64,000 nucleotides of DNA from Rhodothalassiaceae bacterium (GTDB lineage Bacteria; Pseudomonadota; Alphaproteobacteria; Sphingomonadales; Rhodothalassiaceae), in the NCBI GenBank assembly GCA_026004935.1, contig BPKC01000001.1:372001-436000 (forward strand). The letters run 5' to 3'. Within the stretch, counting starts at the first letter, position 1. The number at the start of each line of letters is the position of its first letter. This document shows positions 5,559-40,283 of the stretch, in pieces. The position numbers were made by a program, and so were the translations under genes. The notes below the pieces were generated by a model, which had not been told where the DNA came from, did not search any database, and saw only the letters and a program-made list of their open reading frames with translations.

Positions 5559-6047
5559 TGGACCCGCCGGTCAGGCCGGCGGGTGACGCTTTCTTATTTA
5601 CGTCGTTCGCCGGCTTGACCGGCGAACCCATGAGGCGAGGAGGACCGCACCCGCGCCGGTGCTTGTGCCCCCTGTCGGCTGGACCCGCCGATCAAGCCGG
5701 CGGGTGACGCTTTCTTATTTACGTCGTTCGCCGGCTTGACCGGCGAACCCATCGAGCGGGGACGGCAGCTCCGACGGCGGTAATTGGGCCCGGCGTCTGC
5801 TGGGCCCGCCGGTCAAGCCGGCGGGTGACGAGGAGAGGGGGATGGATTCGCCGGTCGAGCCGGCGGGTGACGTTCGGGAGGGGACGACGGCGGGTTGCGC
5901 ACTCCCCAACGCGTCGTTCGCCGGCTTGACCGGCGAACCCATCGGGCATGCATGACGGACCCGGACGCCAACGGGTGTCTCTGCCGCCCGCTGGACCCGC
6001 CGATCAAGTCGGCGGGTGACGAGAAAAACGAGGGCCGGCGGGTGACG
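5559..6047. repeat. Hairpin repeat cluster 1 (REP/BIME-like modules)
   Basis: Two related hairpins recur. Form B has arms TTCGCCGG and CCGGCGAA around a CTTGA loop; form A has arms ACCCGCCGG and CCGGCGGGT around TCAAG. The reverse complement of A matches B except for paired changes that keep the stem. B and A occur as modules with A starting 79-80 bp after B: 5601-5709, 5722-5830 and 5912-6021. Extra A copies sit at 5559-5588 and 5843-5872, and a partial copy at 6030-6047. A shared stretch covers 5584-5632 and 5705-5753. Open frames through these repeats encode repeated VTRRLDRR-like peptides and are not genes. The remaining 6048-6251 shows nothing I recognise beyond GACCGATGACCG-like short repeats. 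Confidence 0.85.
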
Positions 6048-6251
6048 CAGAAGCAAACGCCTGCGCGTAACAGGAAAAGGAGATTGCCGGCGGCCGATGA
6101 GGGAGGCGTGCGCTCCGGCGGGGGACGCGGAGGACGGGGCGGCGGGAAGGAGCGTGAAAGGCCCGGTACCGTGAGCCGGTCGTCCGATGGCCGATGACCG
6201 AGGACCGCTGAGCAAAGACCGATGACCGCGCACCCGCTCGTCGCTCGGCGG

Positions 6252-7283
6252 CTAGCGGGGCGGCGGAAGCGGCAGCGCGGGAAGCTCGGGCGCCGGTGGC
6301 AGCCGCGCCGCCGCGCGGCTTGCGAGCAGACGGTTGCCCGCAAAGTCGCGGGCGTCGCGGAAGCGGCCGACGAAGACGTTGCCCGAGAGCAGCATCCGCA
6401 CCGCCGCCCCGCCCGGACGCGCGAGGAAGGTGACGGGACGGTCCTTGTCGTTGATCACGAGACAGTCGGTGATCTCGATGCGGTGGGACCGGTCGGGGGC
6501 CAGCCCCTCGAGCCCGTAGCCGATGAGATCGTGATTGACGGAGGCCGGGCCTTCCACGAGCAGGCTGCGGCGGATCACGAGCCGGCCGCCGTTCGAGACG
6601 TCGATGAGCCGGCTGTCGTCACCGTCGAGCGAGGCGATCACCGTGTCCTCGATCACGGTCTCGGCGGCGCGGGACTTGATCTCGTGGCCCTGATCGCGGG
6701 CGGCGAGAAAGAAGGAGCGCGAGATGTGCAGCCGCCCGCCGCCGACATAGACGCCATGGGCCCGCCCCGCGCGGCCGAGGCGGACGAAGCGGCTGTCCCA
6801 GATCGCCACCGTGCCGGGATCCGGGCCGGTGAGCAGGCCCTGCTCGCTGTCGTGGAAATGCACGCCCACCAGCGCCAGATTGCGGCCCTCGAGGCGCACG
6901 CAGGCGCCGTTGCCGTCGGGAACGGCGATGCCGGAGCATTCGAGGTCGTGGATCTCGACATTGTCGGCCTTCACGACGATGGCGGCCTTGCCTTCGGCCG
7001 CGCGGCGCATCAGATGCGCGCCGCGGCCCTCCACGACCGCGCCTTCGGCCGTGATCACCATCGCCTCGAGCCATTCGCCCGGCCCGATCCGGATCACCGA
7101 GAACGGCACCGCCGCCTCGGCGGCCGCCTTGAGACTGTGGAAGGAGCGGCCGTCGACGAGCACCTCGCCGGGCGCCGGCGTGCGCGGGGCGGCGGCCTGC
7201 GGCGCGGCGGCCGCACGGGAGAGCGCGCCCGCAAGACAGAGCGCGAGCGCGGGTGCATGCAGGAGCGGCGTGATGCGGCGCAT
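6252..7283 (-). CDS. Secreted right-handed parallel beta-helix protein
   Basis: Probably a periplasmic or exported protein with a pectate-lyase-like solenoid; no enzymatic role can be assigned. Seen: 343 residues from the ATG at 7283; a signal peptide (MRRITPLLHAPALALCLAGA, cleavage near Ala-Ala-Ala); then repeated short strands with alternating hydrophobics, such as DNVEIHDLECSG, RNLALVGVHFHD and GRLHISRSFFLA, typical of rungs. VDGRSFHSLKAAAEAAVPFSVIRIGPGEW at the start resembles the N-terminal cap seen in this fold. Longer in-frame extension upstream to 7334 lacks a signal-like start. Divergent from ubiD, with about 140 bp between. Fold call is confident, function unknown. Confidence 0.8.
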   Translation of the reverse strand: MRRITPLLHAPALALCLAGALSRAAAAPQAAAPRTPAPGEVLVDGRSFHSLKAAAEAAVPFSVIRIGPGEWLEAMVITAEGAVVEGRGAHLMRRAAEGKAAIVVKADNVEIHDLECSGIAVPDGNGACVRLEGRNLALVGVHFHDSEQGLLTGPDPGTVAIWDSRFVRLGRAGRAHGVYVGGGRLHISRSFFLAARDQGHEIKSRAAETVIEDTVIASLDGDDSRLIDVSNGGRLVIRRSLLVEGPASVNHDLIGYGLEGLAPDRSHRIEITDCLVINDKDRPVTFLARPGGAAVRMLLSGNVFVGRFRDARDFAGNRLLASRAAARLPPAPELPALPLPPPR

Positions 7284-7424
7284 GGTCGATCCCATCCTTC
7301 GGCGAGGCTTGCACGGCCCGCGGCGCCGAGGCAAGCCCGTCGTGCGGGCCGGTTCCCGGATGGCGCGGGCGCCATGAAGGGGCTATGAACGGAGCCGGTT
7401 GCGAGCGGATGGAAGGAGCGGCGG

Positions 7425-8915
7425 ATGGCCTTCGAGTCTCTCGGCGCGTATCTCGAGGCGCTGGAACGGCGCGGGGAGCTGAAGCGCATCGCCCATCCCG
7501 TCTCGCTGGACCGCGAGATCACCGAGATCCACCGCCGCGTGCTGGCGCGCGGGGGCCCGGCGCTGCTGTTCGAGAACGCCGTCCATCCCGACGGCCGGCC
7601 GGCCGGGATGCGGGTTCTCGCCAATCTCTTCGGCACGAAGGCGCGCATCGCCTTCGCCCTCGGCCGCCGGCCGGAGGAGCTGCGCGAGCTGGGCGAGCTT
7701 CTCGCCTTCCTGCGTCAGCCGGCGCCGCCGAGGAGCCTGCGCGAGGCCTTCGATCTCGTGCCGGTCGCGCGCCAGGCGATGGCCATGCGCCCCAGAACGG
7801 TGCGGCGCGCGCCCTGCCAGGAGGTCGTGCTGGAAGGCGCGGAGGTCGACCTCGGCCGGCTGCCGATCCAGATCTGCTGGCCGGACGAGCCGGCGCCGCT
7901 CGTCACCTGGGGCGTCGCGGTGACCCGCGGACCCGATCCGGCGGCCGATCGCGAGGACGACTTCAATCTCGGGATCTACCGCATGCAGGTGCTGGGCCCG
8001 GACCGCACCGCCATGCGCTGGCTCAAGCATCGCGGCGGCGCCCGGCACCATGCCCGCTGGGCGCAGGAGAAGAGGGAGCCGCTGCCGGCCGCGGTCGTGA
8101 TCGGGGCAGATCCCGCGACATTGCTGGCGGCCGTAACCCCGGTCCCCGACACGCTCTCCGAATACGCCTTCGCCGGCCTGCTGCGGGGCAGCCCGGTGCG
8201 CCTCGTGCCGTGCCGCACGGTTCCCCTCAAGGTGCCGGCCGAGGCGGAGATCGTGCTCGAGGGCCATGTGAGCCTCGACGAGCTCGTGGACGAGGGCCCC
8301 TACGGCGATCACACCGGCTACTACAACGCCGTCGAAAAATTCCCGGTCTTCCGGATCTCGGCCATCACCATGCGCCGCGACCCCATATATCTGACGACCT
8401 ACACCGGCCGCCCGCCCGACGAGCCCAGCATCCTGGGCGAGGCCCTGAACGAGGTCTTCATCCCCCTGATCCGGCAGCAGTTCCCGGAGATCGTGGACTT
8501 CTGGCTGCCGCCGGAGGGCTGCAGCTACCGCATCGCGGTCGTCAGCATCCGCAAGCGCTATCAGGGCCATGCGAAGCGGATCATGATGGGCGTGTGGTCC
8601 TATCTGCGCCAGTTCCTCTACACCAAGATCGTCATCGTCGTGGACGACGACATCGACGCGCGGGACTGGAAGGACGTGATGTGGGCGGTCTCGACCCGCG
8701 CGGATCCCGTGCGCGACACGCTGCTCATTCCCGATGCGCCCATCGACTATCTGGACTTCGCCTCGCCGAAGGAGGGCCTCGGCGGCAAGATGGGGATCGA
8801 CGCCACCAACAAATGGCCGGGCGAAACGGAGCGCGCATGGGGCCGCCTGCTCGAGATGGACGAGGAGACGGTCGCGCGCGTGGACGCGATCTGGGCGTCG
8901 CTGGGGCTCGACTGA
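7425..8915 (+). CDS. ubiD: UbiD-family decarboxylase (4-hydroxy-3-polyprenylbenzoate decarboxylase)
   Basis: Decarboxylates the polyprenylated hydroxybenzoate intermediate of ubiquinone synthesis with prenylated FMN. Seen: 496 residues, the usual UbiD length; [22 protein letters not shown] and [13 protein letters not shown], hallmark segments around the cofactor and the catalytic acid; [13 protein letters not shown] near the C-terminus. The ATG is preceded by AAGGAG at good spacing. It is separate from other ubiquinone genes here (the UbiB-like gene lies far away at 63.3 kb), and no UbiX prenyltransferase is in the window. Related UbiD enzymes act on other aromatic acids, but the length and lack of a degradation cluster favour the biosynthetic role. 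Confidence 0.93.
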
Positions 8916-8968
8916 CGCGGCCTTGGATGGCCCCGGCGGGGCCGCCGGAAGCCCGGCGCCGGCAGGCG

Positions 8969-8997
8969 TCGCGTTTTCTCGAAAATTCATGTATAAT
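8969..8997 (+). promoter_or_regulatory. Candidate promoter of the cysteine peptidase gene
   Basis: A perfect TATAAT lies at 8992-8997 in an A/T-rich pocket unusual for this DNA, about 70 bp before the start at 9070. The position expected for the -35 box holds only a weak match, so the call rests mostly on the -10 box. Confidence 0.35.
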
Positions 8998-9069
8998 GCG
9001 CCGCGCAAAGGGAGTGCGCGGTTTGAAGCGGCCATGACGTCCGCTTGAGGCCGCGTCAGGGAGAAAGCG

Positions 9070-9795
9070 ATGCCCACGCGCGCCGCAGGCCGGTCGTGGG
9101 GCGTGAGGGGGTTCAAGGCGCAGGCCGCCTGTGCGGCCGTGCTCGCCGTCGGGCTCGTCCTCGTCGCGGGCGTGCCGCCCGCCGCCGCGGGGGCAGAGGC
9201 GCCGCACGAGGGCGGCCCGCCGCCCGCCGGGGCGGGGCTGATGGCACCGGGGCGGATGCTCGCCATCGGTCCGCCGGAGCGGATCTTCGCCGCGCCGCGC
9301 TTTCGCGCGGGACTTGCGGCGCTTCTCGGCCGGGAAGAGGTCCGCAACCCCCAGTGGGAGGCGCTCACGCGGCTGCTTGCCGCCCTGCCCGAGGCGGCGC
9401 GGCCGGCGATGCTGGTCGCCTGGCTTTCCAGCCGCCCCTATGTCGGCGACGGCCGGCTCTGGGGCGTGGAGGACCACTGGGATTCGCTCGCGGGCTTTCT
9501 CGCCCATGGTGGCGACTGCGAGGAATTCGCGATCGCCGCCTACCGGCTGATGCGCGACAGCGGCACGGCCGACGAGGCGCTGACCATCGTGCTCGCAAGT
9601 CCGGACGGGCCGGGCCCCGATCATGCCTATCTCCTGGCGCGGATCGGCGGCAGGGTCGTCGCAATCGATCCGCTCGCCGCGCGGCTTGCGGCCGCGGACG
9701 GGCCGCCGCCGCGGCCCGTCGTCGCCTTCAACGCGAGAAGGGTCTGGCTGCTGCCGACGGACGCCGCTGCCGCACCCGCCGCCGCCGATCGCTGA
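9070..9795 (+). CDS. Bacterial transglutaminase-like cysteine peptidase (BTLCP/DUF920, LapG-like)
   Basis: Probable periplasmic cysteine peptidase. Seen: 241 residues, a hydrophobic export segment (about 17-41), then a papain-like triad in transglutaminase order: Cys150 in HGGDCEEFAIAAYRLM, His185 in PDHAYLLAR and Asp200 in VVAIDP. Known: this family includes LapG, which clips surface adhesins when released by the c-di-GMP receptor LapD. Neither a LapD-like protein nor a large type I secreted adhesin is in the window, so an adhesin substrate is only a guess. A stand-alone upstream promoter is plausible. Family assignment good; substrate unknown. Confidence 0.82.
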   Translation: MPTRAAGRSWGVRGFKAQAACAAVLAVGLVLVAGVPPAAAGAEAPHEGGPPPAGAGLMAPGRMLAIGPPERIFAAPRFRAGLAALLGREEVRNPQWEALTRLLAALPEAARPAMLVAWLSSRPYVGDGRLWGVEDHWDSLAGFLAHGGDCEEFAIAAYRLMRDSGTADEALTIVLASPDGPGPDHAYLLARIGGRVVAIDPLAARLAAADGPPPRPVVAFNARRVWLLPTDAAAAPAAADR

Positions 9796-9954
9796 ACCTG
9801 TCACGTGCTGCGGGCGGCCGCCGCCCGGGCGGGATCTCCATCCCTTCGCCTGCGGCTTTGCGTGCGCCGCCGCGCGGGTGGCTCTTGACGACGGGGCCGG
9901 ATTTGTCCTGGCAGCCGATATATCGAATTGCTGCATGAAGCGAGGGGACGACTC

Positions 9955-10827
9955 ATGAGACCCCGTCCGGTCACGGGTTTCGCTGCGGCGTTTGCGGCGG
10001 GATGCGCGCTTGCGGCCGGTGCCGCCGGGGCGGCGGATGCGCCCCGCCATGCGCAGGAGCGGACCATCGCGCCGTTCTCCCGGCTCCTGCTCAAGGGCGC
10101 GGCCGATGTCCATTTTCGCGTCGGGCGGGAACGCCGGGCGGTGGTGCGCGGCGAGGATGCCCGGGCGGTGCGGGAGACGAGTCTCGCCGTCGACGGTGGC
10201 CGGCTCGTCATCACCGGGCCCGAGGGCCGCTGCCGGCGGGAGATCGGCGTGGAATTCTGCCGCACGCCGCGCGTCGTCGTCGAGGTCACGGCACCGGCGC
10301 CGGAGGCGGTGACGATCGCGGGCGCCGGGGATGTCACGCTGGAAGACCTTTCCGGTTCCGACCTGAAGGTCGTGCTCGAAGGCGCCGGCGACATGCGGCT
10401 GTCCGGGCGCTGCGGCCGGCTCGCGGTGGAGCTCGAAGGTGCCGGTGACGTCGATGCGCGCGAGCTCGCCTGCCGCGAGCTTGCCGCACGGCTCACCGGT
10501 GCGGGGGATCTGCGGGCGCGGGCGGCGCCGCGAATCGCGGTCACGCTCGCCGGCGCCGGGGATGCGGAGATCACCGGCCGCTGCAAGCAGGCGGAGATCA
10601 CGGTGCGCGGGGCGGGCGACGTGGAGGGCGGCCTCGTCTGCCGCAAGGCGCGCGTCACGGCCTCGGGCCCCGGCGACGTCACGCTGACGGTGACGGATGA
10701 GCTCGCCGTCACCCACAACGGCCCGGGAGACGTGAGGATCCATGGCCACCCGACTCTGCTCGAGGTGAACGCCGGCGGGCCCGGGCGCTTCAAGCTCGAC
10801 AGCCGGCCCGCCTCCTCCGGCAGCTGA
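9955..10827 (+). CDS. Secreted GIN-domain (DUF2807) repeat protein
   Basis: Probably exported; role unknown. Seen: 290 residues from an ATG preceded by GAGGGGAC; signal peptide of about 27 residues ending in AAGAADA; then an unusually regular beta-solenoid in which GAGDV-like turns (GAADV, GAGDV, GAGDM, GAGDV, GAGDL, GAGDA, GAGDV, GPGDV, GPGDV) recur roughly every 18-25 residues. Known: DUF2807 proteins were labelled putative autotransporter adhesins in Bacteroidetes, and occur widely as short secreted beta-helices. No autotransporter barrel is present here. It stands between the peptidase and a convergent unknown gene. Confidence 0.8.
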   Translation: MRPRPVTGFAAAFAAGCALAAGAAGAADAPRHAQERTIAPFSRLLLKGAADVHFRVGRERRAVVRGEDARAVRETSLAVDGGRLVITGPEGRCRREIGVEFCRTPRVVVEVTAPAPEAVTIAGAGDVTLEDLSGSDLKVVLEGAGDMRLSGRCGRLAVELEGAGDVDARELACRELAARLTGAGDLRARAAPRIAVTLAGAGDAEITGRCKQAEITVRGAGDVEGGLVCRKARVTASGPGDVTLTVTDELAVTHNGPGDVRIHGHPTLLEVNAGGPGRFKLDSRPASSGS

Positions 10828-10931
10828 CGCCGGCATCGCCGGACGCGTCCGCGAGCGGGGCCGCGGGCCCGCCACCGTGCTGCGCGGTGACGGGGCTCGG
10901 CGGGGAGCCTGCGCACCCCGCGGGCAGCCGA

Positions 10932-12221
10932 TCACTGCGGCTTCAGCGGCCCGATCGTCGCCTTCTTCGGCCTCACGCAGGTGACCCTGTAGGCGGCCCG
11001 CGGGCCCTTCACCTGCTGCGGCGCGAGCACCTCGATCTGATACCAGCCCGTCACCTCGCGCGCGTCCCCGCGGTCCGCGGCGATCGCGCCGATGTCGGGC
11101 GCGATCTCGCGCCGCCAGGTGTAGAGCTGGTGGCGGCCGGGCCCCTTGAAGGTCCAGGTGACCGCGTTGGACTGCCAGCCCCGGTCGTCGACGACCCGGA
11201 AGGTGACGGTGGTCGCATGCCCCGTCGTCACATAGCCGCCGACCTTCAGCTTCGCCGGGCAGGTGCCGCGCCAGGTCGCGGGTGTCACCACCGTCTCGAT
11301 CTTCTGGATCGTCGCGACCGCATGGGCCTTCCTGGGCTTCTTCTGGCGTGGCGGCGGATCCTCGTGGACGAGGGTGATCCGCCAGCCGTCGCCGTCGTGG
11401 ACCAGGGCCTTGACGGTCCAGCTCTTCGGGCGGAAGCCGAGCTCCTGCTCGAGCTTGAGCGCAAGCGAGGTGTCGAGAACCTTCTGGACGTTGGCGGCCA
11501 CGGCCCGGATCGTCGCCGGGCGGCCGAACTCGTCCGTGAGCACCTTGCGCACGATGGCGCGGAAGGCGTGCTCGTGAAATTCCGTCACGAGATTGCAGAC
11601 GATGACCGCCACCTTGCACAGGGCGTTGGCGGGGTAGGCCGCGCTTTCGAAATCCACCTCGAGCAGCTCGTAGCCCACGCGGCCGTCCACGAGCCGCGGC
11701 CGGAGGGTCAGTCCCGCACGCGCCACGGCCTGCATGTCGCGCTCGATGTTGAGCGTGCACTCGCGCCAGCCGCCCGTCAGCTTCTTCCTCAGGCAGCGGC
11801 CCTTGATCTCGTGGCCGCCGTCCTCGAAGGGGATCGCGACGTCGAGTTTCGACCAGTCGCCGTCGTGAAGCGTGACGTTGATCTCCTTGCTGTTGAGCTC
11901 GTCGACGTAATAGAGCCATTTCCGGACGCCCCCGACGGTGGCGGTGACCTCAGGAATGGCGAAGGTGACGACGCGCCCGTCGGGCAGCAGCAGCCGGCTC
12001 TGCTGCTCGAGCCAGGAATCTCCGTGCTTGGCGCCGTAGTTGTCGAGCTTGAGCTGCGTCTTCTGGAAGACCTGCAGAAAGGCGGCCGACATCGTGTAGT
12101 CGGGCACGCTCACCGTCGTCTCGCCGGCCCGGGCCGCCGGCGCGGCAAGTCCCGCGAGCGCAAGCGCGCACGCCGCCACCCATCGGCCGGACCCGCCGGC
12201 CCACCGGTTGATCTTCGACAT
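10932..12221 (-). CDS. Secreted protein of unknown function downstream of nosX
   Basis: I do not recognise this family. Seen: 429 residues from the ATG at 12221, which has a good AGGAAC-type ribosome site; a signal peptide (hydrophobic about 14-30, cleavage near ARAGE); an N-terminal half with paired basic/aromatic strands and three to four cysteines (ALCKVAVIVCNLVTE); a Lys/Arg/Pro-rich linker (PPPRQKKPRKAH); and a C-terminal beta-rich domain bounded by cysteines (GTCPAKLKVGGY ... YRVTCVRPKK) that looks like an Ig-type sandwich with one disulphide. It follows nosX in the same direction after 174 bp, so co-transcription with nos is possible but not shown. Confidence 0.7.
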   Translation of the reverse strand: MSKINRWAGGSGRWVAACALALAGLAAPAARAGETTVSVPDYTMSAAFLQVFQKTQLKLDNYGAKHGDSWLEQQSRLLLPDGRVVTFAIPEVTATVGGVRKWLYYVDELNSKEINVTLHDGDWSKLDVAIPFEDGGHEIKGRCLRKKLTGGWRECTLNIERDMQAVARAGLTLRPRLVDGRVGYELLEVDFESAAYPANALCKVAVIVCNLVTEFHEHAFRAIVRKVLTDEFGRPATIRAVAANVQKVLDTSLALKLEQELGFRPKSWTVKALVHDGDGWRITLVHEDPPPRQKKPRKAHAVATIQKIETVVTPATWRGTCPAKLKVGGYVTTGHATTVTFRVVDDRGWQSNAVTWTFKGPGRHQLYTWRREIAPDIGAIAADRGDAREVTGWYQIEVLAPQQVKGPRAAYRVTCVRPKKATIGPLKPQ

Positions 12222-12395
12222 GGGCGTTCCTCCCGTTCCTCTCCTCCGCGCGGCATTATGCCGCAGCGGGGGCTCCCGCGGCAAGGATCGCGCCCGAGGC
12301 CGGTGCCGACAGGGGTTTCTTCGTGAATCGGCGATGACGGCCGCACCCGTCCCGCGGCCGCCCGCGCCGGGGGCGCCGGCGCGGCGCGCCCGCCT

Positions 12396-13349
12396 TCAGG
12401 CCAGCCGCCGCGCCCGGCTGCCGGGAAAGGCCGCGAGCAGGCGGGAAGCGGCCTGCGGGTCGAGGACCGCGAGCGCGGTGGACAGCGCATCGGCCAGCGC
12501 CGCCGAGGGGGCCGCCACGGCGAGCGCGCGGCGCGCCGCCACGGGCGCGCCCGTGCGCGGATCGAGGACGTGCTGATAGCGGCCGGCGATGCGCGTGCCG
12601 GCGGTGTCGGTGACGGCGATGGCCGGGGCGCCGGCGAGGGCGTCGTCCGCAAGCCCGGCCACCCGCACCGGCCAGGGGGCGCGGCCGGGCGCGTGCCCGA
12701 GCGCCCGGACCTCCCCGAACTGCACGAGGGCGTTGCGGCAGCCCGCGGCCGCAAGCTCCGCCGCCACCCGGTCGGTGATGTAGCCCTGGGCGATGCCGTT
12801 GAAGCTGAGCGCCATGCCGGGGCGGGTGAAGCCGACGCGGCCGGCGTCGAAGACGACCCGGTGCATGCCGATGCGATCGCGGGCGCGGCGCAGCGACCCG
12901 TCGTCCGCCGATCCGGAGGCAAGCGCCGCATAGAGCGGCTGGATCGTGACGTCGAAGGCGCCGCCGCTCGCCTCCCACACCCGGCGCGCGAGGCTCAGCA
13001 CCTCCACCAGCTCGGGCGGCGGATGCGCGAGATCGCCGGCGCGGTTGAGGCGGCAGAGGACGGAGTCCGGCCGGTAGAGGCTGAAGATGCGCTCGAGCCG
13101 GTCCTTTTCGGCGAGCGCGATCGCGACCAGATGCGCCGCCTGCTCCGCATCCGCCGCCTCGACCCACAGATGCGCCTCGCCGCCCAGGGCAAGCCCGCGC
13201 CAATGGTAGAGGCGTCCGGCGGCCGCAAGCTCCCGCAGCAGCGGCGGGATGCCGACGATGCCCGCGAGCGCTCCGGCGGCGGCCACCCGCAGCATTTCTT
13301 TGAGAAACCGGCGGCGGGCGGGGTCAGGCCCCGTTGCGGTCTCGATCAT
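12396..13349 (-). CDS. nosX: NosX, ApbE-family FAD:protein FMN transferase
   Basis: Attaches FMN covalently to the periplasmic domain of NosR, which is needed for electron delivery to N2O reductase. Seen: 317 residues; Tat-type start ARRRFLKEMLRVAAAGALAG; ApbE features RIFSLYRPDSVLCRLNRAGD, ALSFNGIAQGYITDRVA and YQHVLDPRTGAPV, the last containing the metal/FAD-site signature. The start overlaps the nosL stop as ATGA. It is the last gene of the nosRZDFYLX order. A general ApbE role is possible, but position makes NosR the natural target. Confidence 0.94.
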   Translation of the reverse strand: MIETATGPDPARRRFLKEMLRVAAAGALAGIVGIPPLLRELAAAGRLYHWRGLALGGEAHLWVEAADAEQAAHLVAIALAEKDRLERIFSLYRPDSVLCRLNRAGDLAHPPPELVEVLSLARRVWEASGGAFDVTIQPLYAALASGSADDGSLRRARDRIGMHRVVFDAGRVGFTRPGMALSFNGIAQGYITDRVAAELAAAGCRNALVQFGEVRALGHAPGRAPWPVRVAGLADDALAGAPAIAVTDTAGTRIAGRYQHVLDPRTGAPVAARRALAVAAPSAALADALSTALAVLDPQAASRLLAAFPGSRARRLA

Positions 13350-13885
13350 GATCCGGCTCCCGGTCGTTGGTCATGCGGGACGGGCACGGTGCCGAGCAGC
13401 GGCAGGGCGCGGGCGTCGGCGAAGCGGATGATCCGGCCGCCGTGCCGGGCGCGGAAGGCCTCGGCGGCGGCCCTGTCCGCGAACGGCACGAGCTCGGGCG
13501 CGCCCATGCCGCCCCGCCTGTCGCTGCCCTCGACATAGAAGGCGTCCTCGGCCCGGATCCAGGCATCGCGCCCCGGATCCTCCCAGCTCGCAGCCCGGCC
13601 CATGTCCTGGACGTAGACGGCGAGAACCCGCCCCTCGCGCTCGCCGGCCGCAAGATAGGCGAAGCCGTCTGCGACCGAGGCGAACCACAGGGGCCTGTTG
13701 CGCCCCGCGATCCAGATCTGCGCCTTCGGCCCCGGGTGGTTGACGAGCAGCATGCCGCAGAAATGTCCGACCGCCTCGTCATCGATGGGCACCGGCGCCG
13801 GCGCCTCGCGCGTGCCGCAGGCGGCAAGAAGCAGGCCGCACAGGAGAAGGGCGGGGCGGACGAGGCGCGGGATCCTGAGGCCCAT
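13346..13885 (-). CDS. nosL: NosL, copper-binding outer-membrane lipoprotein for N2O reductase maturation
   Basis: Copper chaperone that supplies Cu(I) for the CuZ centre of NosZ. Seen: 179 residues; lipoprotein signal with lipobox LLAACGT (acylated Cys near residue 24); the NosL core VGHFCGMLLVNHPGPKAQIW containing the conserved Cys-Gly-Met copper site; and a C-terminal domain ending in FADARALPLLGTVPVP. It starts 12 bp after nosY and its stop overlaps nosX. Confidence 0.94.
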   Translation of the reverse strand: MGLRIPRLVRPALLLCGLLLAACGTREAPAPVPIDDEAVGHFCGMLLVNHPGPKAQIWIAGRNRPLWFASVADGFAYLAAGEREGRVLAVYVQDMGRAASWEDPGRDAWIRAEDAFYVEGSDRRGGMGAPELVPFADRAAAEAFRARHGGRIIRFADARALPLLGTVPVPHDQRPGAGS

Positions 13886-13897
13886 GGCCGCTCTCCC

Positions 13898-17066: not shown

Positions 17067-17070
17067 CGCT

Positions 17071-30735: not shown

Positions 30736-30796
30736 CGGCCGGCGGCGGGCGCCAGACCCGGCTTCGGGGAGGGCGCGGAAATCCGGGACCGGCGGC

Positions 30797-32116: not shown

Positions 32117-32361
32117 AGCCAGCTGGTGATCGCCGCGAGCGGCTTGCGCGCAAGATCGGGGACGACGGCGTCCTCCGCGGGCCGGCCCGTCACCACGATC
32201 ATCACCGGTCGCTCGTGGTCCGGCCGCCCCAGGATTCCGCGCAGGAAACCCATGGGCGACGGCGTCCGGAACCGGCGCGCCCGCGCGATCATCTCCGCGT
32301 CCGGAAAGCGCGGAAAATCGGCCAGCGGCACCGGCCGGTATCCGGGTCGTTCCTCCGCCAT
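32113..32361 (-). pseudogene. Nitroreductase-family gene with an in-frame internal deletion
   Basis: Seen: an 82-codon frame with a normal ATG and stop. Residues 1-31 (GYRPVPLADFPRFPDAEMIARARRF) look like the N-terminus of FMN-dependent nitroreductases, and residues 32-82 (RTPSPMGFLRGILGRPDHER, then VVTGRPAEDAVVPDLARKPL) look like their C-terminus. The roughly 130-150 residue FMN-binding core between them is missing. The join is near 32262-32268. Inferred: a clean in-frame deletion of a once full-length gene, leaving no flavin site. It could still be translated, but not as a nitroreductase. Confidence 0.65.
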
Positions 32362-32396
32362 GGCGCCCCTCCTCCCGCCAGGCGCCGCGGCCCCGC

Positions 32397-32714
32397 CTAG
32401 AGGCTCGGCGCGATGGTGACCTTGAGCCCGTCGAGTTCGTCGGTGAGCTCGATCTGGCAGGACAGGCGCGAATTCGGCCGGTAGCTCTCCGTCTCGCTCA
32501 CGAGCTCGTATTCCTCCTCGCTCTGCGGCGGCAGGCGCTCGAGCCAGGCCTCGTCGACATAGACATGGCAGGTCGCGCAGGAGCAGCAGCCCCCGCAGAT
32601 CGCCTGCAGATCGTCGAAGCCGGCATCCCGGATCGCCTCCATCAGCGTCTCGCCCACCTCCGGCGTGATCTCCTTCGTGCGTCCGGACAGATCGGTCACG
32701 ATCACCCGCGGCAT
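32397..32714 (-). CDS. 2Fe-2S ferredoxin (adrenodoxin type)
   Basis: Small electron carrier. Seen: 105 residues; cluster ligands Cys40-x5-Cys46-x2-Cys49 and Cys86, the adrenodoxin spacing; EVGETLMEAIRDAGFDD before the cluster and SRLSCQI at the last ligand. Two further cysteines (43 and 44) sit inside the loop. It is 35 bp upstream of the nitroreductase remnant on the same strand, so it may once have shared a transcript with it. The partner reductase or oxygenase is not evident here. Confidence 0.93.
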   Translation of the reverse strand: MPRVIVTDLSGRTKEITPEVGETLMEAIRDAGFDDLQAICGGCCSCATCHVYVDEAWLERLPPQSEEEYELVSETESYRPNSRLSCQIELTDELDGLKVTIAPSL

Positions 32715-32876
32715 GAAACGCGCACTCCCTGCTCCTCTGCAACCCTGCCGAATGCCCCGCCCCCGCCCGCGGCGGCCTTGCGGACGGCCCCGCGGCCGGG
32801 CTAGCGAGGTCCTCCCTAGACGGCGGCGTGCCCGCCGGGCAAGCCCGGCGAGCGCCCGATCGCACGGAAGCGGCGG

Positions 32877-33503
32877 ATGACGGTGGCCGAAATCGATCCG
32901 CATGATCCCGCGGCCTTCGCGGAACTGGCGCGGCGCGATCCCCGCGTGGCGGCGGCGCTCGCCCGCCACGGCGTGCCGGCACCCCGCCGCCGGCCCGCGG
33001 ATCTGCGCACGCTGGCGCGCATCATCGTCGGCCAGCAGGTCTCGGCGCGGGCGGCGGCCACCATCTGGGGGCGGCTCGAGGCGGCGGCCGGCGGCGCCGT
33101 GACGGCGCAGACGATCCTCGGCCTCGGTGACGAGGCGATGCGGCGTGCGGGCCTGTCGCGCCAGAAGCGGCGCTATCTGCGCGCGCTCGCCGAGGCGGTG
33201 GCGGCGGGCCGGCTCGATCCCGGCGCACTCGGCGACCTGCCCGATGAGGAGGTGATCGCGGCGCTGACGGCGCTGCCCGGCTTCGGCGTCTGGTCGGCGC
33301 AGATGTATCTCATCTTCGCGCTGGCGCGGCCCGACGTCTGGCCGGCCGCCGATCTCGGGGTGCGCAGCGGGTTGCAGCTGATCCTCGGGCTCGCGGCGCG
33401 GCCGCAGCTCCATGAAGCCGACGCATTGGCCGGGCCCTTCCGGCCGCTGCGCAGCGCGCTCGCGCTGCTGGCCTGGCACGTGCTCCACAACGAACCGGCC
33501 TGA
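32877..33503 (+). CDS. DNA-3-methyladenine glycosylase II (AlkA-type HhH-GPD)
   Basis: Removes alkylated bases in base-excision repair. Seen: 208 residues; IIVGQQVSARAAATIWGRL, the family opening; the helix-hairpin-helix LPGFGVWSAQMYLIFAL; and catalytic Asp159 in PAADLGVR. GGAAG precedes the ATG. No iron-sulphur cysteine loop is present, as expected for AlkA rather than Nth/MutY. It lacks the N-terminal extra domain of E. coli AlkA, so it is the short bacterial form. Confidence 0.92.
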   Translation: MTVAEIDPHDPAAFAELARRDPRVAAALARHGVPAPRRRPADLRTLARIIVGQQVSARAAATIWGRLEAAAGGAVTAQTILGLGDEAMRRAGLSRQKRRYLRALAEAVAAGRLDPGALGDLPDEEVIAALTALPGFGVWSAQMYLIFALARPDVWPAADLGVRSGLQLILGLAARPQLHEADALAGPFRPLRSALALLAWHVLHNEPA

Positions 33504-33518
33504 CGGCCGCCGCCGTCT

Positions 33519-35624
33519 TCAGCCGGGGCCGCCGGCAAGGCCGTGGCAGGCGAGGATGAAGGCGTATTCCTCGGCGAGCTCGTCGAGCTTCGCATAGCGG
33601 CCGGACCTGCCCGCGTGCCCGGCCTCCATCTCGGTCTTGAGGATCACGGGACGATCGTCGCTGCGCCGCTCGCGCAGCCGCGCCACCCATTTGGCGGGCT
33701 CCCAGTAGGTGACGCGGGGATCGTTGATCCCGGCGGTGACCATGATCGGCGGATAGGCCTGCTCCAACACGTTCTCGTAGGGGCTGTAGGAGCGGATGTA
33801 GCGGAAGGCGTCCGCCGAGCGCAGCGGGTCGCCCCATTCCGGCCATTCGATGGGGGTGAGCGGCAGCGTCTCGTCCAGCATCGTGTTGAGCACGTCGACG
33901 AAGGGCACATGGGCGACGATCCCTGCCCACAGCTCCGGCGTCCAGTTGGCGGCGACCCCCATCAGCGTGCCGCCCGCGGAACCGCCCGAGATCGTGATGG
34001 CGCCCGTGCGCGCAAACCCCGCGGCGACCAGGTGGCGCGCCGCGGCGATGAAGTCGTGGAAGCTGTTCTGGCGCAGGAAGCGGCGGGCCTGTTCGTACCA
34101 TTCGCGCCCGCATTCGTCGCCGCCGCGGACATGGGCGATGGCGAAGGTCACGCCGCGCTCGAGCAGCGACAGACGGTGGCTCGAGAACCGCGGCCGCATG
34201 GCGATGCCGTAGGCGCCGTAGCCGTAAAGATGCAGCGGCCCCGGCCGCGGCCCATCCCGCCGCCGCACGAGGGTCACCGGGATGCGCGCGCCGTCGTGGC
34301 CGCGGGCGTGCATCCGCTCCTCCACATAAGCGTCGGGATCGAAGGGCCCGGCGATGGGCGCCTCCTTCAGGAGCCGGGGCTCGCGCGTCTCCGGATCCAC
34401 GTCGTACACCCGCGCCGGGCGCGCCAGCGAATCGACGCCGATGCGCACCGCCGGGGCATCGAGCTCGAAATTTTCCGCGAGATCGATGCTGGCTCCCACC
34501 GCATCGAGGCGCACCGGCCGGCATCGCCCGTCGCCGTCCAGGATCTCGAGGCATTCTTCGCCGGCGATGCGCGAGACCACGGCGACATGCCGGCGCAGAA
34601 CCGCAAAATCGAGGATGTAGCGGTCCTCGTCGCCGGTGATGAGCGGCTCCCAGGCGTCCTCGCCCGCATCCGCGCGCGCGGCGTAGAGGTCGAAGTCCGG
34701 CTGGCGGCGGTTCGAGCGGATGACGAGCCGGCGGCCGTCGTGGTCCACGGCGTATTCATGACCCGCCCGCCGCGGCGCGACGAGACGGGCCGGTGCGGCC
34801 GGATCCGCGGTATCGACGAGGCGCACTTCGCTCGTGTCATGGCTGGCCGACGAGACCACGAGAAAGCGCCGCGAGGCGGTCTTTGTGAGCGAGACGAAGA
34901 AGCCCGGGTCCGGCTCCTCGTAGAGCACGGCGTCTTCTTCCGCCGGCCGGCCGAGGCGGTGCAGCATCGCCCGCCAGGGCCGCCATTCGCGGTTGAGCGC
35001 GACATAGGCGAGCATGGGCTCGGCCGTCTCGAGGAAGACGGGCGCACCGATGGTCTCCGGGATCGGCTCGCCGACCGTCTCGCCGGTCTCCAGATCGCGG
35101 ACGACCAGCGTGAAGCGCTCGGCCCCGTCCCGGTCCATGGTCCAGGCGAGAAAGCGCCCGCAGGGGCTCGCCGCAAAGCCGCCCAGCCGGAAGGCCTTCG
35201 CCCCTTCGGCCAGCGCCGGCTCGTCGAGCACGAGCCGCCAGTCCTGCGGCCGGTCGAGGGGTGCGCGGTACCAGCGCCGGTGCTCGCATCCCGCCTCATA
35301 GCGCCACTGGTACAAGAAGGCGCCGAGGCGGAAGGGCACGCCGGCATCCTCCTCGACGATGCGCGCGCGCATCTCGTCCACGAGGACGCGCCGGAGGCCG
35401 GCGAGCGGCGCCATCACCGCGGCGAAATAGCGGTTCTCGGCCTCGAGATGCGCCCGGATTTCGGGATCGGCGACCTTGGGGTAGCCCGGATCGCGCAGCC
35501 AGGCATACGGGTCCTCCAGCGTGAGACCGTGATGGCTGACGCGCCGCGGCCGGCGGGCGGCCCGCGGCGGCGTCAGGTCCGCCGCCCAGGCGAAAGCTTC
35601 CATTCGTCCGTTCGTGTCGCGCAT
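33519..35624 (-). CDS. S9A prolyl oligopeptidase / oligopeptidase B
   Basis: Serine peptidase that cleaves short peptides, probably cytoplasmic. Seen: 701 residues; seven-bladed propeller in the N-terminal two thirds; alpha/beta-hydrolase domain with Ser549 in GGSAGG, Asp635 in NDPR and His670 in EAGHAG. The opening HGLTLEDPYAWLRD is typical of oligopeptidase B-like enzymes. The ATG at 35624 has AGGAGG nine bases upstream. It is divergent from the aminopeptidase P gene, a natural pairing for peptide breakdown. Confidence 0.93.
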   Translation of the reverse strand: MRDTNGRMEAFAWAADLTPPRAARRPRRVSHHGLTLEDPYAWLRDPGYPKVADPEIRAHLEAENRYFAAVMAPLAGLRRVLVDEMRARIVEEDAGVPFRLGAFLYQWRYEAGCEHRRWYRAPLDRPQDWRLVLDEPALAEGAKAFRLGGFAASPCGRFLAWTMDRDGAERFTLVVRDLETGETVGEPIPETIGAPVFLETAEPMLAYVALNREWRPWRAMLHRLGRPAEEDAVLYEEPDPGFFVSLTKTASRRFLVVSSASHDTSEVRLVDTADPAAPARLVAPRRAGHEYAVDHDGRRLVIRSNRRQPDFDLYAARADAGEDAWEPLITGDEDRYILDFAVLRRHVAVVSRIAGEECLEILDGDGRCRPVRLDAVGASIDLAENFELDAPAVRIGVDSLARPARVYDVDPETREPRLLKEAPIAGPFDPDAYVEERMHARGHDGARIPVTLVRRRDGPRPGPLHLYGYGAYGIAMRPRFSSHRLSLLERGVTFAIAHVRGGDECGREWYEQARRFLRQNSFHDFIAAARHLVAAGFARTGAITISGGSAGGTLMGVAANWTPELWAGIVAHVPFVDVLNTMLDETLPLTPIEWPEWGDPLRSADAFRYIRSYSPYENVLEQAYPPIMVTAGINDPRVTYWEPAKWVARLRERRSDDRPVILKTEMEAGHAGRSGRYAKLDELAEEYAFILACHGLAGGPG

Positions 35625-35775
35625 GTGCCGATGCCTCCTTGAACGCGCGCCCTTCATTGCGGCGGCGGCGTTCCGATTCAAGCCCGATCGGCCTTGCCTT
35701 CGCGCATGGCCCGGTGCGATAGGCTCATCGGCATCCGCGCGAAGACCGGCCGGGACATCACGGGAGACCACAGCC

Positions 35776-37572
35776 TTGAGCGAAGAGCAGCGCACGAGAT
35801 TGGACGCCCTGCGCAGGCTGCTCGCGCAGCGGGGGCTTGACGGCTTCATCCTGCCGCTCACCGACGAGCACGGCAGCGAATACGTGCCGGCCTATGCGCG
35901 CCGGCTGGAATGGCTGACGGGATTCACCGGCTCGGCCGGCACCGCCGTGGTGCTGACCGACGGCCCGGCGGCGCTCTTCGTCGACGGCCGCTACACGCTC
36001 CAGGCGGCCGAGGAGGTGCCGGAGGAGCTCTATGAGCATTGCGGCGTGCCGGCGGACGATCCGCTGGACTGGATCGCGCGCAAGGCGAAGGCGGGTGCGC
36101 GCATCGGCTTCGACTCGAAGCTGCATCCGAAGAGCTGGTACGAGAAGGCCGCGCGCCGGCTCGCCGCAAGGGGGATCACGCTGGTGCCGCTTGCGGCCGA
36201 TCCGGTCGATGCGCTCTGGGAGGACCAGCCCGCCCGCCCGGCCGCGCCGGCGCGCCCGCATCCCGTGACCTTCGCCGGCGAGGCGAGCGCCGACAAGCGC
36301 CGGCGCCTCGGCGAGGCGGTGGCGGACAGGGGCGCAAGGCTCGCCGTCATCACCGCCCTCGATTCGGTCGCCTGGCTCTTCAACATCCGCGGCGAGGACG
36401 TGCTGCACACCCCGGTCGTCATGGCCTTCGCCCTGCTTCACGCCGACGGCCGCGCCGATCTGTTCATCGCACCGGAGAAGGTGACCGAGGAGTTGCGCCG
36501 GCATCTCGGATCGGAGGTGACGATCCACCCCTATGACGGCTTCTTTGCGCTTCTGGCCGGGCTGCGGGCGGATGCCGGGCCGGTGCTCGCCGATCCCGCG
36601 ACCCACAGCGTCGCCGTCTTCGAGGCCCTGGAGAAGGCCGGTGTGCGGGTGGTCGAGGGCGAGGACCCCTGCGTGCTGCCCAAGGCCTGCAAGAATCCGG
36701 TCGAGATCGCGGGCGCGCAGGCCGCGCATCTGAGAGACGGCGCGGCGGTGAGCGCCTTCCTCGCCTGGCTGGACGCGGCGATCGCCGCCGGCGAGGAGAT
36801 CGACGAGCTCACGGCGGCCGCCCGGCTCGAGGCCTTCCGGCGCCAGCAGGACCGGTTCATCGACCTGTCCTTCGACAGCATCGTCGGCGCGGGGCCGAAC
36901 GGCGCCATCGTCCACTACCGGGTGAGCGAGCGGACCAACCGGCGGCTCGAGCCGGGGACTCTGTTTCTCGTCGACTCGGGCGGCCAGTATCTCGACGGCA
37001 CGACCGACATCACCCGCACGGTGCCGGTGGGCGAGGCGCCCGAGGACGCGCGCCGGCATTTCACGCTCGTGCTGAAGGGCCACATCGCGCTCTCCCGCGC
37101 CCGCTTTCCCGAAGGCACGGCGGGCCAGCAGCTCGATGCGCTGGCGCGCCGGCCGCTGTGGGAGGCCGGGCTCGACTATGACCATGGCACGGGCCACGGC
37201 GTGGGGTCGTTCCTGTCGGTCCACGAAGGCCCGCAGCGGATCGCCAAGACCGCGAGCATGGTGGCGCTGCGGCCGGGCATGATCCTCTCCAACGAGCCCG
37301 GCTATTACCGCGCCGGCGCCTACGGCATCCGGATCGAGAACCTCGTCGTCGTCGAGGAGGACGAGGAAGGCCCGGACGGCCGGCGCTTCTACCGCTTCCG
37401 GACCTTGACCCGCGCCCCCATCGATCGGCGATTGATCGTCGTCGAGATGCTGGAGCCGGAGGAGCGGCGCTGGCTCGACCAGTACCACGCCCGGGTCTTC
37501 GAGGATCTGGCGCCGCTGGTCGATGAGCGGACCCGCGACTGGCTCAGGCGGATGACGCGGCCGATCGGCTGA
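35776..37572 (+). CDS. Xaa-Pro aminopeptidase P (M24B, long form)
   Basis: Dimetal enzyme that removes N-terminal residues before proline. Seen: 598 residues, matching the three-domain long form; metal ligands in FLVDSGGQYLDGTTDITRT, HGTGHGVGSF, NEPGYY and RIENL. The start is a TTG with GGGAG at suitable spacing; the upstream open frame contains only a poor, compositionally odd extension that crosses the divergent promoter. Together with the divergent S9 peptidase it suits recycling of proline-containing peptides. Confidence 0.92.
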   Translation: MSEEQRTRLDALRRLLAQRGLDGFILPLTDEHGSEYVPAYARRLEWLTGFTGSAGTAVVLTDGPAALFVDGRYTLQAAEEVPEELYEHCGVPADDPLDWIARKAKAGARIGFDSKLHPKSWYEKAARRLAARGITLVPLAADPVDALWEDQPARPAAPARPHPVTFAGEASADKRRRLGEAVADRGARLAVITALDSVAWLFNIRGEDVLHTPVVMAFALLHADGRADLFIAPEKVTEELRRHLGSEVTIHPYDGFFALLAGLRADAGPVLADPATHSVAVFEALEKAGVRVVEGEDPCVLPKACKNPVEIAGAQAAHLRDGAAVSAFLAWLDAAIAAGEEIDELTAAARLEAFRRQQDRFIDLSFDSIVGAGPNGAIVHYRVSERTNRRLEPGTLFLVDSGGQYLDGTTDITRTVPVGEAPEDARRHFTLVLKGHIALSRARFPEGTAGQQLDALARRPLWEAGLDYDHGTGHGVGSFLSVHEGPQRIAKTASMVALRPGMILSNEPGYYRAGAYGIRIENLVVVEEDEEGPDGRRFYRFRTLTRAPIDRRLIVVEMLEPEERRWLDQYHARVFEDLAPLVDERTRDWLRRMTRPIG

Positions 37573-37622
37573 ACCCGGCCCGGCCGCGGGGCCGGCGGGA
37601 GCCGGCGAAAAGGAGACGCAGG

Positions 37623-38453
37623 ATGGGCGAGGACGCCGGCACCGGCATGCTGCGCTGTCACCGCGATGGGCCGGTCGCCCATGTGGAGATCAACAATCCG
37701 GACCGCGCCAATGCCCTCGCGGCCGCCTTCTGGGCCGAGCTGCCGCGGCTCGTCGCGCGGCTCGATGCCGACACGGGCGTGCGCGCGATCGTGATCTCGG
37801 GCGCCGGCCGGCATTTCACCGCCGGCATCGACCTTGCGATCTTCCGGGAATTCGCGCCCGATCCCGCGGCCGATCCGGCGCGGCTGCGCGAGCGGCTCCA
37901 TCGCCGCATCCGCGAGATGCAGGCGACCTTCACGGCGCTCGAGCGCTGCCGAAAGCCCGTGATCGCGGCGATCCACGGCGCCTGCCTCGGCGCCGGCGTC
38001 GACATGGTGACCGCCTGCGACATCCGCATCGCCGCGCGCGACGCCTTCTTCGCCATCCAGGAGATCAACATCGGCATGGTCGCCGACGTCGGCACGCTGC
38101 AGCGGGCGCCGCATCTGCTTCCCCACGGCATCCTGCGCGAGCTCGCCTTCACCGGCCGGCGGATGGGGGCGGAGGAGGCGCATCGCTGGGGCTTCGTCAA
38201 CGCCGTGCACGAGACGAAGGAGGCGGCGCTCCAGGCGGCGATGGCGATGGCGCGCGAGATCGCATCCAAAAGCCCGCTTGCGGTCGCCGGCACCAAGACG
38301 GTGCTGAACCACGCCCGCGACCATGCGGTCGAAGACGGGCTCGCCTTCGTCGCGGCCTGGAACGCGGGCATGCTGATCGGCGCGGACATCATGAAGGGGG
38401 CGGCCGCGGCGCTCTCCGGCGGCACCCCCGCCTTCGACGATCTGATGGAGTAG
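37623..38453 (+). CDS. Crotonase-family enzyme, dienoyl-CoA isomerase-like
   Basis: Probably shifts double bases of dienoyl-CoA during unsaturated fatty-acid oxidation. Seen: 276 residues; oxyanion segments GRHFTAGIDL and HGACLGAGVDMVTACDIRIA; and the delta3,5-delta2,4-dienoyl-CoA isomerase-like INIGMVADVGTLQRAPHL and KSPLAVAGTKTVLNHARDH, which match that subgroup better than plain enoyl-CoA hydratase. AAGGAG precedes the ATG. The next gene encodes a quinone-type oxidoreductase 34 bp downstream, so they are probably co-transcribed. Confidence 0.88.
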   Translation: MGEDAGTGMLRCHRDGPVAHVEINNPDRANALAAAFWAELPRLVARLDADTGVRAIVISGAGRHFTAGIDLAIFREFAPDPAADPARLRERLHRRIREMQATFTALERCRKPVIAAIHGACLGAGVDMVTACDIRIAARDAFFAIQEINIGMVADVGTLQRAPHLLPHGILRELAFTGRRMGAEEAHRWGFVNAVHETKEAALQAAMAMAREIASKSPLAVAGTKTVLNHARDHAVEDGLAFVAAWNAGMLIGADIMKGAAAALSGGTPAFDDLME

Positions 38454-38487
38454 AGGCGACGGAGCAGGCGAAGGAGAGGCGAGGAAG

Positions 38488-39486
38488 ATGGCCGAGAAGG
38501 CGCAGGTCTGGGTGATCGCGAAGCGGCCGGGCGGCGGGCCCGTGGGCGAGGAGCATTTCCGCCTCGAGGAGCGCGAGGTGGGCGAGCCGGGCCCGGGCGA
38601 GGTGAAGGTCCGCGTGCGCTGGCTCGGCTTCGATCCGGCCCAGCGCTCGTGGATGGACAATCTCGCCGACTATGTCGCGCCCACCGAGGTCGGCGGCGTG
38701 ATGCCGGGCAACGCGGTCGCCGAAGTCGTCTCGAGCGGTGATCCGCGTTTTGCGCCCGGCGATCTCGTCGTCGGCCTCATCGGCTGGCAGACGCTGGCGG
38801 TGGTGCCGGCGCGAATCCTGCGCAAGATCCCGGACGGCGTGCCGCCGACGGCAACCCTCGGCATTCTCGGGATCACGGGGCTGACCGCCTATTTCGGCCT
38901 GATGCGCATCGGCCGGCCGGCCGCCGGCGAGACGCTGGTGGTCTCGGCGGCCGCCGGATCGACGGGCTCGACCGTCGTCCAGCTCGGCCGGATCATGGGG
39001 CTCAAGGTCATCGGCATCGCCGGCGGGCCCGAGAAATGCGCCTTCCTGCGCGAGGAGCTGAAGGCCGACGGCGTCATCGACTACAGGAACGAGGACGTGG
39101 GCGCCCGCCTCGACGAGCTCGCGCCCGAAGGCATCGACATCTTCTATGACAATGTCGGCGGCCCGATCCTGGACGCGGTGCTGGCACGCATCGCCCATCA
39201 CGCCCGCATCGTCGTCTGCGGCGCGATCTCGCAGTACAACACCCGCGACACCTACGGACCGAAGCGCTACCTCAACCTCATCCTGCGCCGGGCGCGCATG
39301 GAGGGCTTCATCGTCACGGATTTCGCCGCCGAGTTCGACAAGGTCCAGCGCCGGCTCGCCCGCTGGATCGCCGACGGCCGCCTCGTCTACCGCGAGGACG
39401 TGATGGAGGGCTTCGAGAACGCACCACGGGCCTTCCTGCGCCTGTTCACGGGCGAAAACCGCGGCAAGCAGATCCTCAAGGTCTGA
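38488..39486 (+). CDS. Zinc-independent medium-chain reductase (CurA/LTB4DH-like)
   Basis: NADP-dependent reductase of alpha,beta-unsaturated ketones or aldehydes. Seen: 332 residues; GFDPAQRSWM in the N-terminal domain, LGITGLTAYFGLM, and the dinucleotide motif SAAAGSTGSTVVQLGRIMG; DIFYDNVGGPILDAVL and GAISQYN complete the CurA/leukotriene-B4-dehydrogenase pattern. No zinc-binding cysteines. Follows the crotonase gene and ends before a repeat cluster; no terminator was recognised between them. Confidence 0.92.
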   Translation: MAEKAQVWVIAKRPGGGPVGEEHFRLEEREVGEPGPGEVKVRVRWLGFDPAQRSWMDNLADYVAPTEVGGVMPGNAVAEVVSSGDPRFAPGDLVVGLIGWQTLAVVPARILRKIPDGVPPTATLGILGITGLTAYFGLMRIGRPAAGETLVVSAAAGSTGSTVVQLGRIMGLKVIGIAGGPEKCAFLREELKADGVIDYRNEDVGARLDELAPEGIDIFYDNVGGPILDAVLARIAHHARIVVCGAISQYNTRDTYGPKRYLNLILRRARMEGFIVTDFAAEFDKVQRRLARWIADGRLVYREDVMEGFENAPRAFLRLFTGENRGKQILKV

Positions 39487-39608
39487 GAGGGGCCGGATCC
39501 GCCGACGGGTCTTCGGGCGCCGGCAGTCAGGGGCGCCCGGCCGGCGGGCGAGGTGGCGACGCCCTCGCGGCATGCGTCATGCCGGGCGGGTGACTCTCTT
39601 CCTCTTCG

Positions 39609-40283
39609 CGTCGTTCGCCGACTTGATCGGCGAACCCATGAGACGGCCGTGGCATCCCCGGCGCAAGAGATTGGCCCGGCTGTCGGCTGGACCCGCCGGT
39701 CAAGCCGGCGGGTGACGAAGAGAGCGGGTGCGGGCCGGGCGCTCGCCACGCGGGCTCCTGATCACTGACGACTGATGACCGATCACTGACTCGTCGTTCG
39801 CCGGCTTGACCGGCGAACCCATGGGGCGGCGACGGCAGCTCCGACGGCGGTAATCGGCCCCGCCGCCGGCTGGACCCGCCGGTCAAGCCGGCGGGTGACG
39901 CAGAGAGCGGGTGCGGGCCGGGCGCTCGCCACGCGGGCTCCTGATCACTGACGACTGATGACCGATCACTGACTCGTCGTTCGCCGGCTTGGCCGGCGAA
40001 CTCATGGGGCGGGGACGGCAGCTCCGACGGCGGTAATCGGCCCCGCCGCCGGCTGGACCCGCCGGTCAAGCCGGCGGGTGACGAAAGAAAGAGAGCAGGC
40101 GGGCGACGCGGAAGAAAGAGCGCCCGCGGGTGACGGGATGAATAGAGCACCGGCGGGTGACGCATTCCCAAACGCGTCGTTCGCCGGCTTGGCCGGCGAA
40201 CCCATCGGGCGGGGACGATTGCACGGGCATTGGAGGTTGGCTCGGCCAGCGGCTGGATCCGCCGATCAAGTCGGCGGATGACG
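39609..40283. repeat. Hairpin repeat cluster 2 (REP/BIME-like modules)
   Basis: Same two hairpins as the cluster at 5.6-6.0 kb. Four B-to-A modules, each with A starting exactly 79 bp after B: 39609-39717, 39792-39900, 39975-40083 and 40175-40283. The linker GGCAGCTCCGACGGCGGTAA is also found in the 5722-5830 module 34 kb away. Some copies have a GGCCG loop variant. The flanking DNA at 39487-39608 and 40284-40423 contains only fragments of the same repeats. Frames through the block code for repeated RLDRR/AGLTGG-like peptides and are not genes. Confidence 0.85.
39710..40083 (+). repeat. 183-bp tandem duplication within repeat cluster 2
   Basis: 39710-39892 and 39893-40075 are near-identical, with about four or five differences visible (for example CCGGCGAACCC against CCGGCGAACTC, and GCGGCGACGG against GCGGGGACGG). 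Hairpin starts repeat at exactly 183 bp (B at 39609, 39792, 39975; A at 39688, 39871, 40054). The module at 39609 is a third, more diverged period. Confidence 0.85.

Follow-up and report, generated by a model that had tools for sequence, protein, structure and literature searches.

What are the paired hairpins that recur at fixed spacing in a Rhodothalassiaceae genome? In a stretch of 64,000 nucleotides (GenBank assembly GCA_026004935.1, contig BPKC01000001.1, positions 372,001 to 436,000; hereafter the window), seven copies of a module in which a B hairpin is followed by an A hairpin lie in two clusters 34 kb apart. We consider it probable, at roughly 0.7, that these modules are head-to-head heterodimers of CGTC-tagged repetitive extragenic palindromes (REPs), and that the dimer of about 109 bp has dispersed, as a non-autonomous element, to intergenic sites, mostly at 3' ends. 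The genome, that of an alphaproteobacterium, comprises 2,911,476 bases in two contigs.

The initial annotation had described seven B-A pairs with the layout of bacterial interspersed mosaic elements (BIMEs), and this description held in outline, with opposed hairpins, fixed spacing and arrays. The distance between hairpin starts was 79 in six pairs and 80 in one (in order 79, 79, 80, 79, 79, 79, 79), and chance expectation for the A and B motifs with up to three mismatches allowed was 0 (100 shuffles). Cluster 1 contains two extra A-oriented hairpins. The compensating changes that had been pointed out are also real, the B stem being GTT/AAC and the A stem ACC/GGT; what these paired changes mostly represent, however, is differences among discrete hairpin classes that occupy fixed slots.

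Matches to the B core with at most two mismatches numbered 303 in the whole genome (152 forward and 151 reverse), and the control gave 0. A position matrix made from the window's 16 copies (score of at least 18) retrieved 310 hairpins of classes A, a and B in 846,588 bases, and none in the reversed sequence. This first sample took in contig 2 and the window, together with 38 stretches (20 kb each, placed at round 50- or 100-kb positions) that were picked with the list of B-core matches already seen, and the locus L043, which was picked for its known hits. With the window and L043 set aside, 308 hairpins in 772,588 bases extrapolate to about 1,160 per genome. A stem-agnostic search uncovered 52 copies of a further class, C, giving four hairpin classes (A, a, B and C), with a stem of 9 bp and a loop of 5 nt in A, a and B and of 4 nt in C. 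Each base of GACG, which is the CGTC tag on the other strand, is kept in 298-305 of the 310 hairpins, and the bases of TGG (the CCA tail) opposite the tag in 271, 298 and 296. The first two stem positions are AT in classes a and C, AC in A and GT in B. Adding 20 stretches picked at known hits gave an extended sample of 949,108 bases (501 read twice, hairpin-free) with 597 hairpins; in this sample, partly chosen at hits, 68 of 74 clusters hold at least three hairpins. The sequence immediately flanking the GACG end on its outer side is rich in purines, most markedly in class C, where they make up 92-100% of the first 10 nt; the tract is less pronounced in A and a, and uneven in B.

The order of the classes follows a two-slot rule. 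Hairpins less than 600 bp apart, class C included, were counted as neighbours, and in the first sample all 139 divergent neighbours had a gap of 46-51 nt, 138 of them joining B or C to A or a. In the extended sample the gap was 46-51 nt in 214/216 cases, and 211/216 pairs joined B/C with A/a, compared with about 48% expected at random. The five remaining pairs include three with a GTT stem side that look like misclassified B, one that is B/C-like and one that is degenerate. B-A spacing is fixed, and not random, across the sampled genome as in the window. A second A hairpin commonly lies 10-13 nt further on in the same direction, and the 120 convergent neighbours, which lie inside arrays, vary in gap, the modes lying near 11, 37, 62 and 74 nt. 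Nearly all clusters are one-directional, and no strand bias of the arrays was obvious by eye. Three divergent neighbours in the extended sample, lying 605, 1428 and 1754 bp apart, were seen as candidates for a gene flanked by the two hairpins (a REPtron). The two neighbours of the extended sample outside the 46-51 nt range, both a/C, at 233839 and 234021 (G000:C1), have a gap of 113 nt rather than about 49.

The two hairpins of the dimer appear to be maintained as separate stems. Pairing is kept in 294-305 of the 310 hairpins at each of the nine stem positions, and four of the nine pairs (4-26, 5-25, 6-24 and 12-18) change on both sides while being paired in 294-301 of 310, so that the stem-preserving covariation anticipated for the genomic copies is present. 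In 42 units whose spacers are under 80% alike, compared with shuffles that ignore relatedness, 97.2% of local-stem cells were paired versus 94.9% in shuffles, and 24 cells were changed on both sides versus 6.5. The 26 non-redundant 49-nt spacers (less than 80% alike) are on average 58% alike, compared with 31% when shuffled, and the hairpins are 90-96% alike. A set of 65 non-redundant 49-nt spacers showed no consensus fold. In the 136 B-type units, no perfect inverted run between the arms exceeds 17 bp. Four units folded as DNA lay well below shuffles (z from -3.7 to -5.5). A long B:A stem was also considered as the selected structure, and RNAalifold and DNA folding (three of four units) favoured it; this candidate was rejected, as the variation preserves two local stems.

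The hairpins belong to a known CGTC repeat family, and what is unusual here is their number, the two-slot order, the arrays and the signs of fairly recent spread. CGTC-tagged REPs were defined by Di Nocera, De Gregorio & Rocco 2013 (PMC3733652). The available excerpts of that paper give an unpaired terminal CGTC tag, a stem of 8-9 bp, a loop of 4-5 nt, a CCA tail in most repeats and AT almost invariably at stem positions 1-2; head-to-head dimers with the tags outside predominate, heterodimers occur, and spacers of similar length are found in some families. They place the repeats at convergent or unidirectional intergenic sites without a linked transposase, the mover being unknown, and in available excerpts of the literature on such repeats, including PMC3733652 and PMC12306157, none is reported. 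The present hairpins share with that description the tag, the 9-bp stem, the 4-5-nt loop, the CCA tail, the head-to-head dimers and the heterodimers, as well as an alphaproteobacterial host and convergent or unidirectional intergenic sites; of transposase families, PF01797 and PF02371 were searched in this genome and gave no match. They differ from it in that AT at stem positions 1-2 is confined to classes a and C, and in that two slots are each taken by two hairpin classes with few exceptions. Among the CGTC repeats named in the excerpts (PMC3733652), dRS3 of Neisseria resembles the present family in forming large clusters; dRS3 and RPE-4/RPE-6 of Rickettsia have other stems, and Rickettsia has intragenic copies, whereas none was found in called genes here.

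Other genomes of the class carry the same kind of repeat at much lower density. A framework pattern in which the stem is free and a TCAAG loop is required, so that CGTC repeats with other loops go uncounted, gave 601 exact matches here and at most 79 in each of 288 other genomes; the density of 206 per Mb compares with 20 per Mb in the genome ranked next, a roughly tenfold difference. With a cut-off of at least 10 matches, chosen after the table was seen, 21 of 289 genomes were rich in the pattern. Close opposed pairs among the matches listed had unlike stems, judged by eye, in 22/22 cases (19 head-to-head and 3 tail-to-tail), and some gaps recur among them, such as 52 nt in G268 (four pairs) and 59 nt in G313 (two pairs). 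In a relatives search of 40 genomes, this one included, with 150 candidates scored per genome and a model that knows this genome's own stems, the hairpin model matched 13 genomes, patchily, and gave no match in G003 of the same family. In relatives the frame recurs but its stems and gaps are different, with gaps for example of 16 and 29 nt in G009.

It had also been proposed that the whole unit of about 109 bp is selected or mobilised, and the fixed spacing and a comparison of flanks provide moderate evidence of spread as a unit. Eleven pairs of loci lie more than 20 kb apart and have spacers at least 94% alike (one per pair of loci). In a gapped comparison of 50 nt of flank, with 2,000 pairs of unrelated units as background, 8 of the 11 pairs did not rise above background likeness on the left and 5 did not on either side, the right-flank cut-off being 10% of background. 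Examples with unlike flanks are 512550/2812164, 2468254/1088001 and, with identical spacers, 2611940/523518. The pair 806276/2612166, which had seemed the best such case in an ungapped comparison, was dropped because the gapped comparison shows partial likeness on the left. Units 2402396 and 2402693, 300 bp apart, share a spacer identical at 48/48 positions but differ in the class of the left hairpin (B or C) and in both flanks. Switches between B and C at spacer identity of at least 84% were seen in nine locus pairs, not all of them independent. We read the flanks and switches, on the sequence evidence, as reflecting dispersal of the dimer together with recombination at the hairpins.

Several points weigh against the reading of the modules as CGTC-tagged dimers that have spread, beginning with the fact that gene conversion could mimic this pattern of flanks and switches. 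The 11 locus pairs, among which some loci recur, are not independent, and one of them, 512550/574631, is identical on both sides and is a larger duplication. Left flanks are partly alike in 2100376/1587292 (2% of background as high) and 806276/2612166 (11%), the right side of 1017801/1054337 is identical for 132 nt, and right flanks exceed 98% of background in three pairs and are near the 95% mark in two more. No insertion event was directly seen. For base-level empty sites the relatives are too distant and the same-genus genome is fragmented. The best YchF identity among 80 named loci kept, where the same or very near genomes may be excluded, was 71%, and that in the same-genus genome G001 was 80%. 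Synteny of the genes next to cluster 2 extends to G001, G002, G005 and G006; no hairpins lie near the cluster-2 counterpart in the 9.5-12 kb read of G002, G003, G005 and G006 (YchF identity about 70-74%), and in G001 a contig ends close to the expected array position. Two of the five covariation measures did not rise above shuffles (double-change pairs 3 versus 2.4, further pair types 7 versus 8.3). The locus L132 of G020 has identical opposed hairpins with a gap of 129 nt, which breaks the rule of unlike halves. Arrays are the rule here, whereas clusters tend to be rare, Neisseria and Wolbachia excepted, in the excerpts of PMC3733652. Finally, the protein families searched in this genome numbered only three.

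On the reading of the modules as CGTC-tagged heterodimers that spread as units, each dimer consists of two different 29-30-nt hairpins, with the CGTC tag outward and the CCA tail inward, about 49 nt apart. Local tandem duplication would have produced one-directional arrays at many sites, and units would have recombined at the hairpins. A nuclease acting in trans and recognising both hairpins may have moved the dimer as DNA in single-stranded or cruciform form, and this enzyme would not be a Y1 (RAYT/IS200) transposase. Unlike stems may persist because perfect long inverted repeats get removed. The excerpts of PMC3733652 suggest that unlike halves may escape such removal; the two-slot rule agrees with this suggestion without proving it, and it allows one to test directly why unlike halves are so common in dimers of short palindromes. 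More tentatively, and with odds that we place well below even, CGTC-REP heterodimers may be mobile DNA of a kind whose spread involves no HUH (Y1) enzyme and which is currently or was recently active in this genome. Either a nuclease would recognise one hairpin as the left end and its unlike partner as the right, or the dimers would be copied through template switching at the hairpins by replication and repair enzymes. According to the available excerpts, PMC3733652 did not settle the identity of the mover of CGTC REPs, nor whether the families are dying out. The high number of matches, the signs of fairly recent spread and the lack of a Y1 match therefore make this a good genome in which to find or exclude such an enzyme.

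It is unlikely, on our assessment, that the hairpins are instead kept mainly for a host function, at mRNA 3' ends (as stabilisers, terminators or RNase barriers) or as DNA sites, and spread or become uniform through recombination and gene conversion and not by transposition. Their location would suit such a role. Of 362 hairpins, 0 overlapped a gene called by a simple gene caller, and the 42 clusters with both flanking genes called occupy 26 convergent, 14 same-direction and 2 divergent gaps, compared with 109, 475 and 105 among 689 background gene pairs. The enrichment in convergent gaps is strong (odds ratio 11, p=2e-12), and the depletion of divergent gaps alone is not significant (p=0.07). 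The greater likeness of hairpins than of non-redundant spacers and the low folding energies of the four units point the same way. However, neutral insertions also survive at intergenic 3' sites, and a scan of both clusters for intrinsic terminators was at chance level, with predictions not positioned at the hairpins. The patchy occurrence in relatives, with no match in G003, also argues against a host function, and near-identical spacers at distant sites with unlike flanks are not readily explained by it.

A REP-associated tyrosine transposase (RAYT), that is, a Y1 HUH enzyme that was responsible for copying the dimers but has since been lost, or else acted from elsewhere, is improbable. E. 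coli BIMEs, made of GTAG REPs, and Pseudomonas REPINs are opposed REP pairs at fixed spacing that form arrays of mosaic make-up, and the dimer spreads as a unit; in IS200/IS605, two unlike hairpins mark the two ends. The layout of tagged opposed hairpins, fixed spacing and arrays is alike here, and Y1 transposases occur in 12 of the 40 genomes of the relatives search. The tag, however, is CGTC and not GTAG, and the 49-nt spacer holds no coding sequence, unlike what lies between IS200/IS605 ends. The RAYT link suggested in the initial annotation did not withstand the search for PF01797, the family of RAYT and IS200 transposases: this genome gave 0 matches, in a search whose controls gave a signal in 5/14, and 5 of the 6 other same-family genomes in the relatives search had none. 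Nor is there an excess in pattern-rich alphaproteobacteria, as PF01797 was found in 3/21 of them, leaving 18 without it, versus 56/268 other genomes (p=0.58); the pattern and PF01797 searches of the class each drew 289 genomes, which are taken as the same set. Some distant copies are near-identical, which suggests that spread took place after any loss of such an enzyme. Very improbable, finally, is a miniature inverted-repeat transposable element of an ordinary DDE insertion sequence with terminal repeats palindromic by chance, which would account for the inverted CGTC..GACG ends and the near-fixed length, because the ends differ from one another, either of them forms a covarying hairpin of its own, and PF02371 (IS110 type) is absent from the genome, PF01797 and PF02371 being the transposase families searched.

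The positions of all features in the window are collected in the table. The A-class hairpin at the left edge of cluster 1 is probably a truncated unit, judging from the spacer-like sequence that precedes it.

Features of the two hairpin clusters (positions in the window; hairpins given as span or start)
Feature	Positions	Strand	B hairpin	Spacer (nt)	A hairpin	Remark
A-class hairpin	5559..5588	+				no partner 79 bp upstream; motif match, sequence reading
Unit 1	5601..5709	+	5601-5630	49	5680-5709	
Unit 2	5722..5830	+	5722-5751	49	5801-5830	
A-oriented hairpin	5843..5872	+				mixed stem type, 12 nt past unit 2
Unit 3	5912..6021	+	5912-5941	50	5992-6021	
Half-hairpin remnant of A	6033..6048	+				repeat family D7
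Unit 4	39609..39717	+	39609	49	39688	
GATCACTGA-type minisatellite	39758..39790	+				between units; second copy 39941-39973
Unit 5	39792..39900	+	39792	49	39871	
Unit 6	39975..40083	+	39975	49	40054	
27-bp half-hairpin repeats	40097..40162	+				families D5, D6; minisatellite span 40082-40162, also 40269-40307
Unit 7	40175..40283	+	40175	49	40254	second hairpin of a class (stem ATC/GAT)

No Rfam family matched at gathering score within the window. The 27-bp half-hairpin minisatellite occupies linkers between units and may explain the steps of about 26 nt in linker length. The motif YGATSACTGA, picked after the array sequences had been read and noted in the window at 39758-39790 and 39941-39973, occurs 55 times in the 846,588 bases sampled, never farther than 400 bp from a hairpin, against 0 occurrences in the reversed control; it is often found immediately to the left of B hairpins and may represent an additional, array-linked repeat. 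A reverse transcriptase gene, weighed as a candidate mover of the repeats, lies at G000:C1:1060040-1060600 (open reading frame L041:9758-10780), near an open reading frame of 197 aa; it is the only RVT_1 match reported, and from its motifs we take it to be retron-like.

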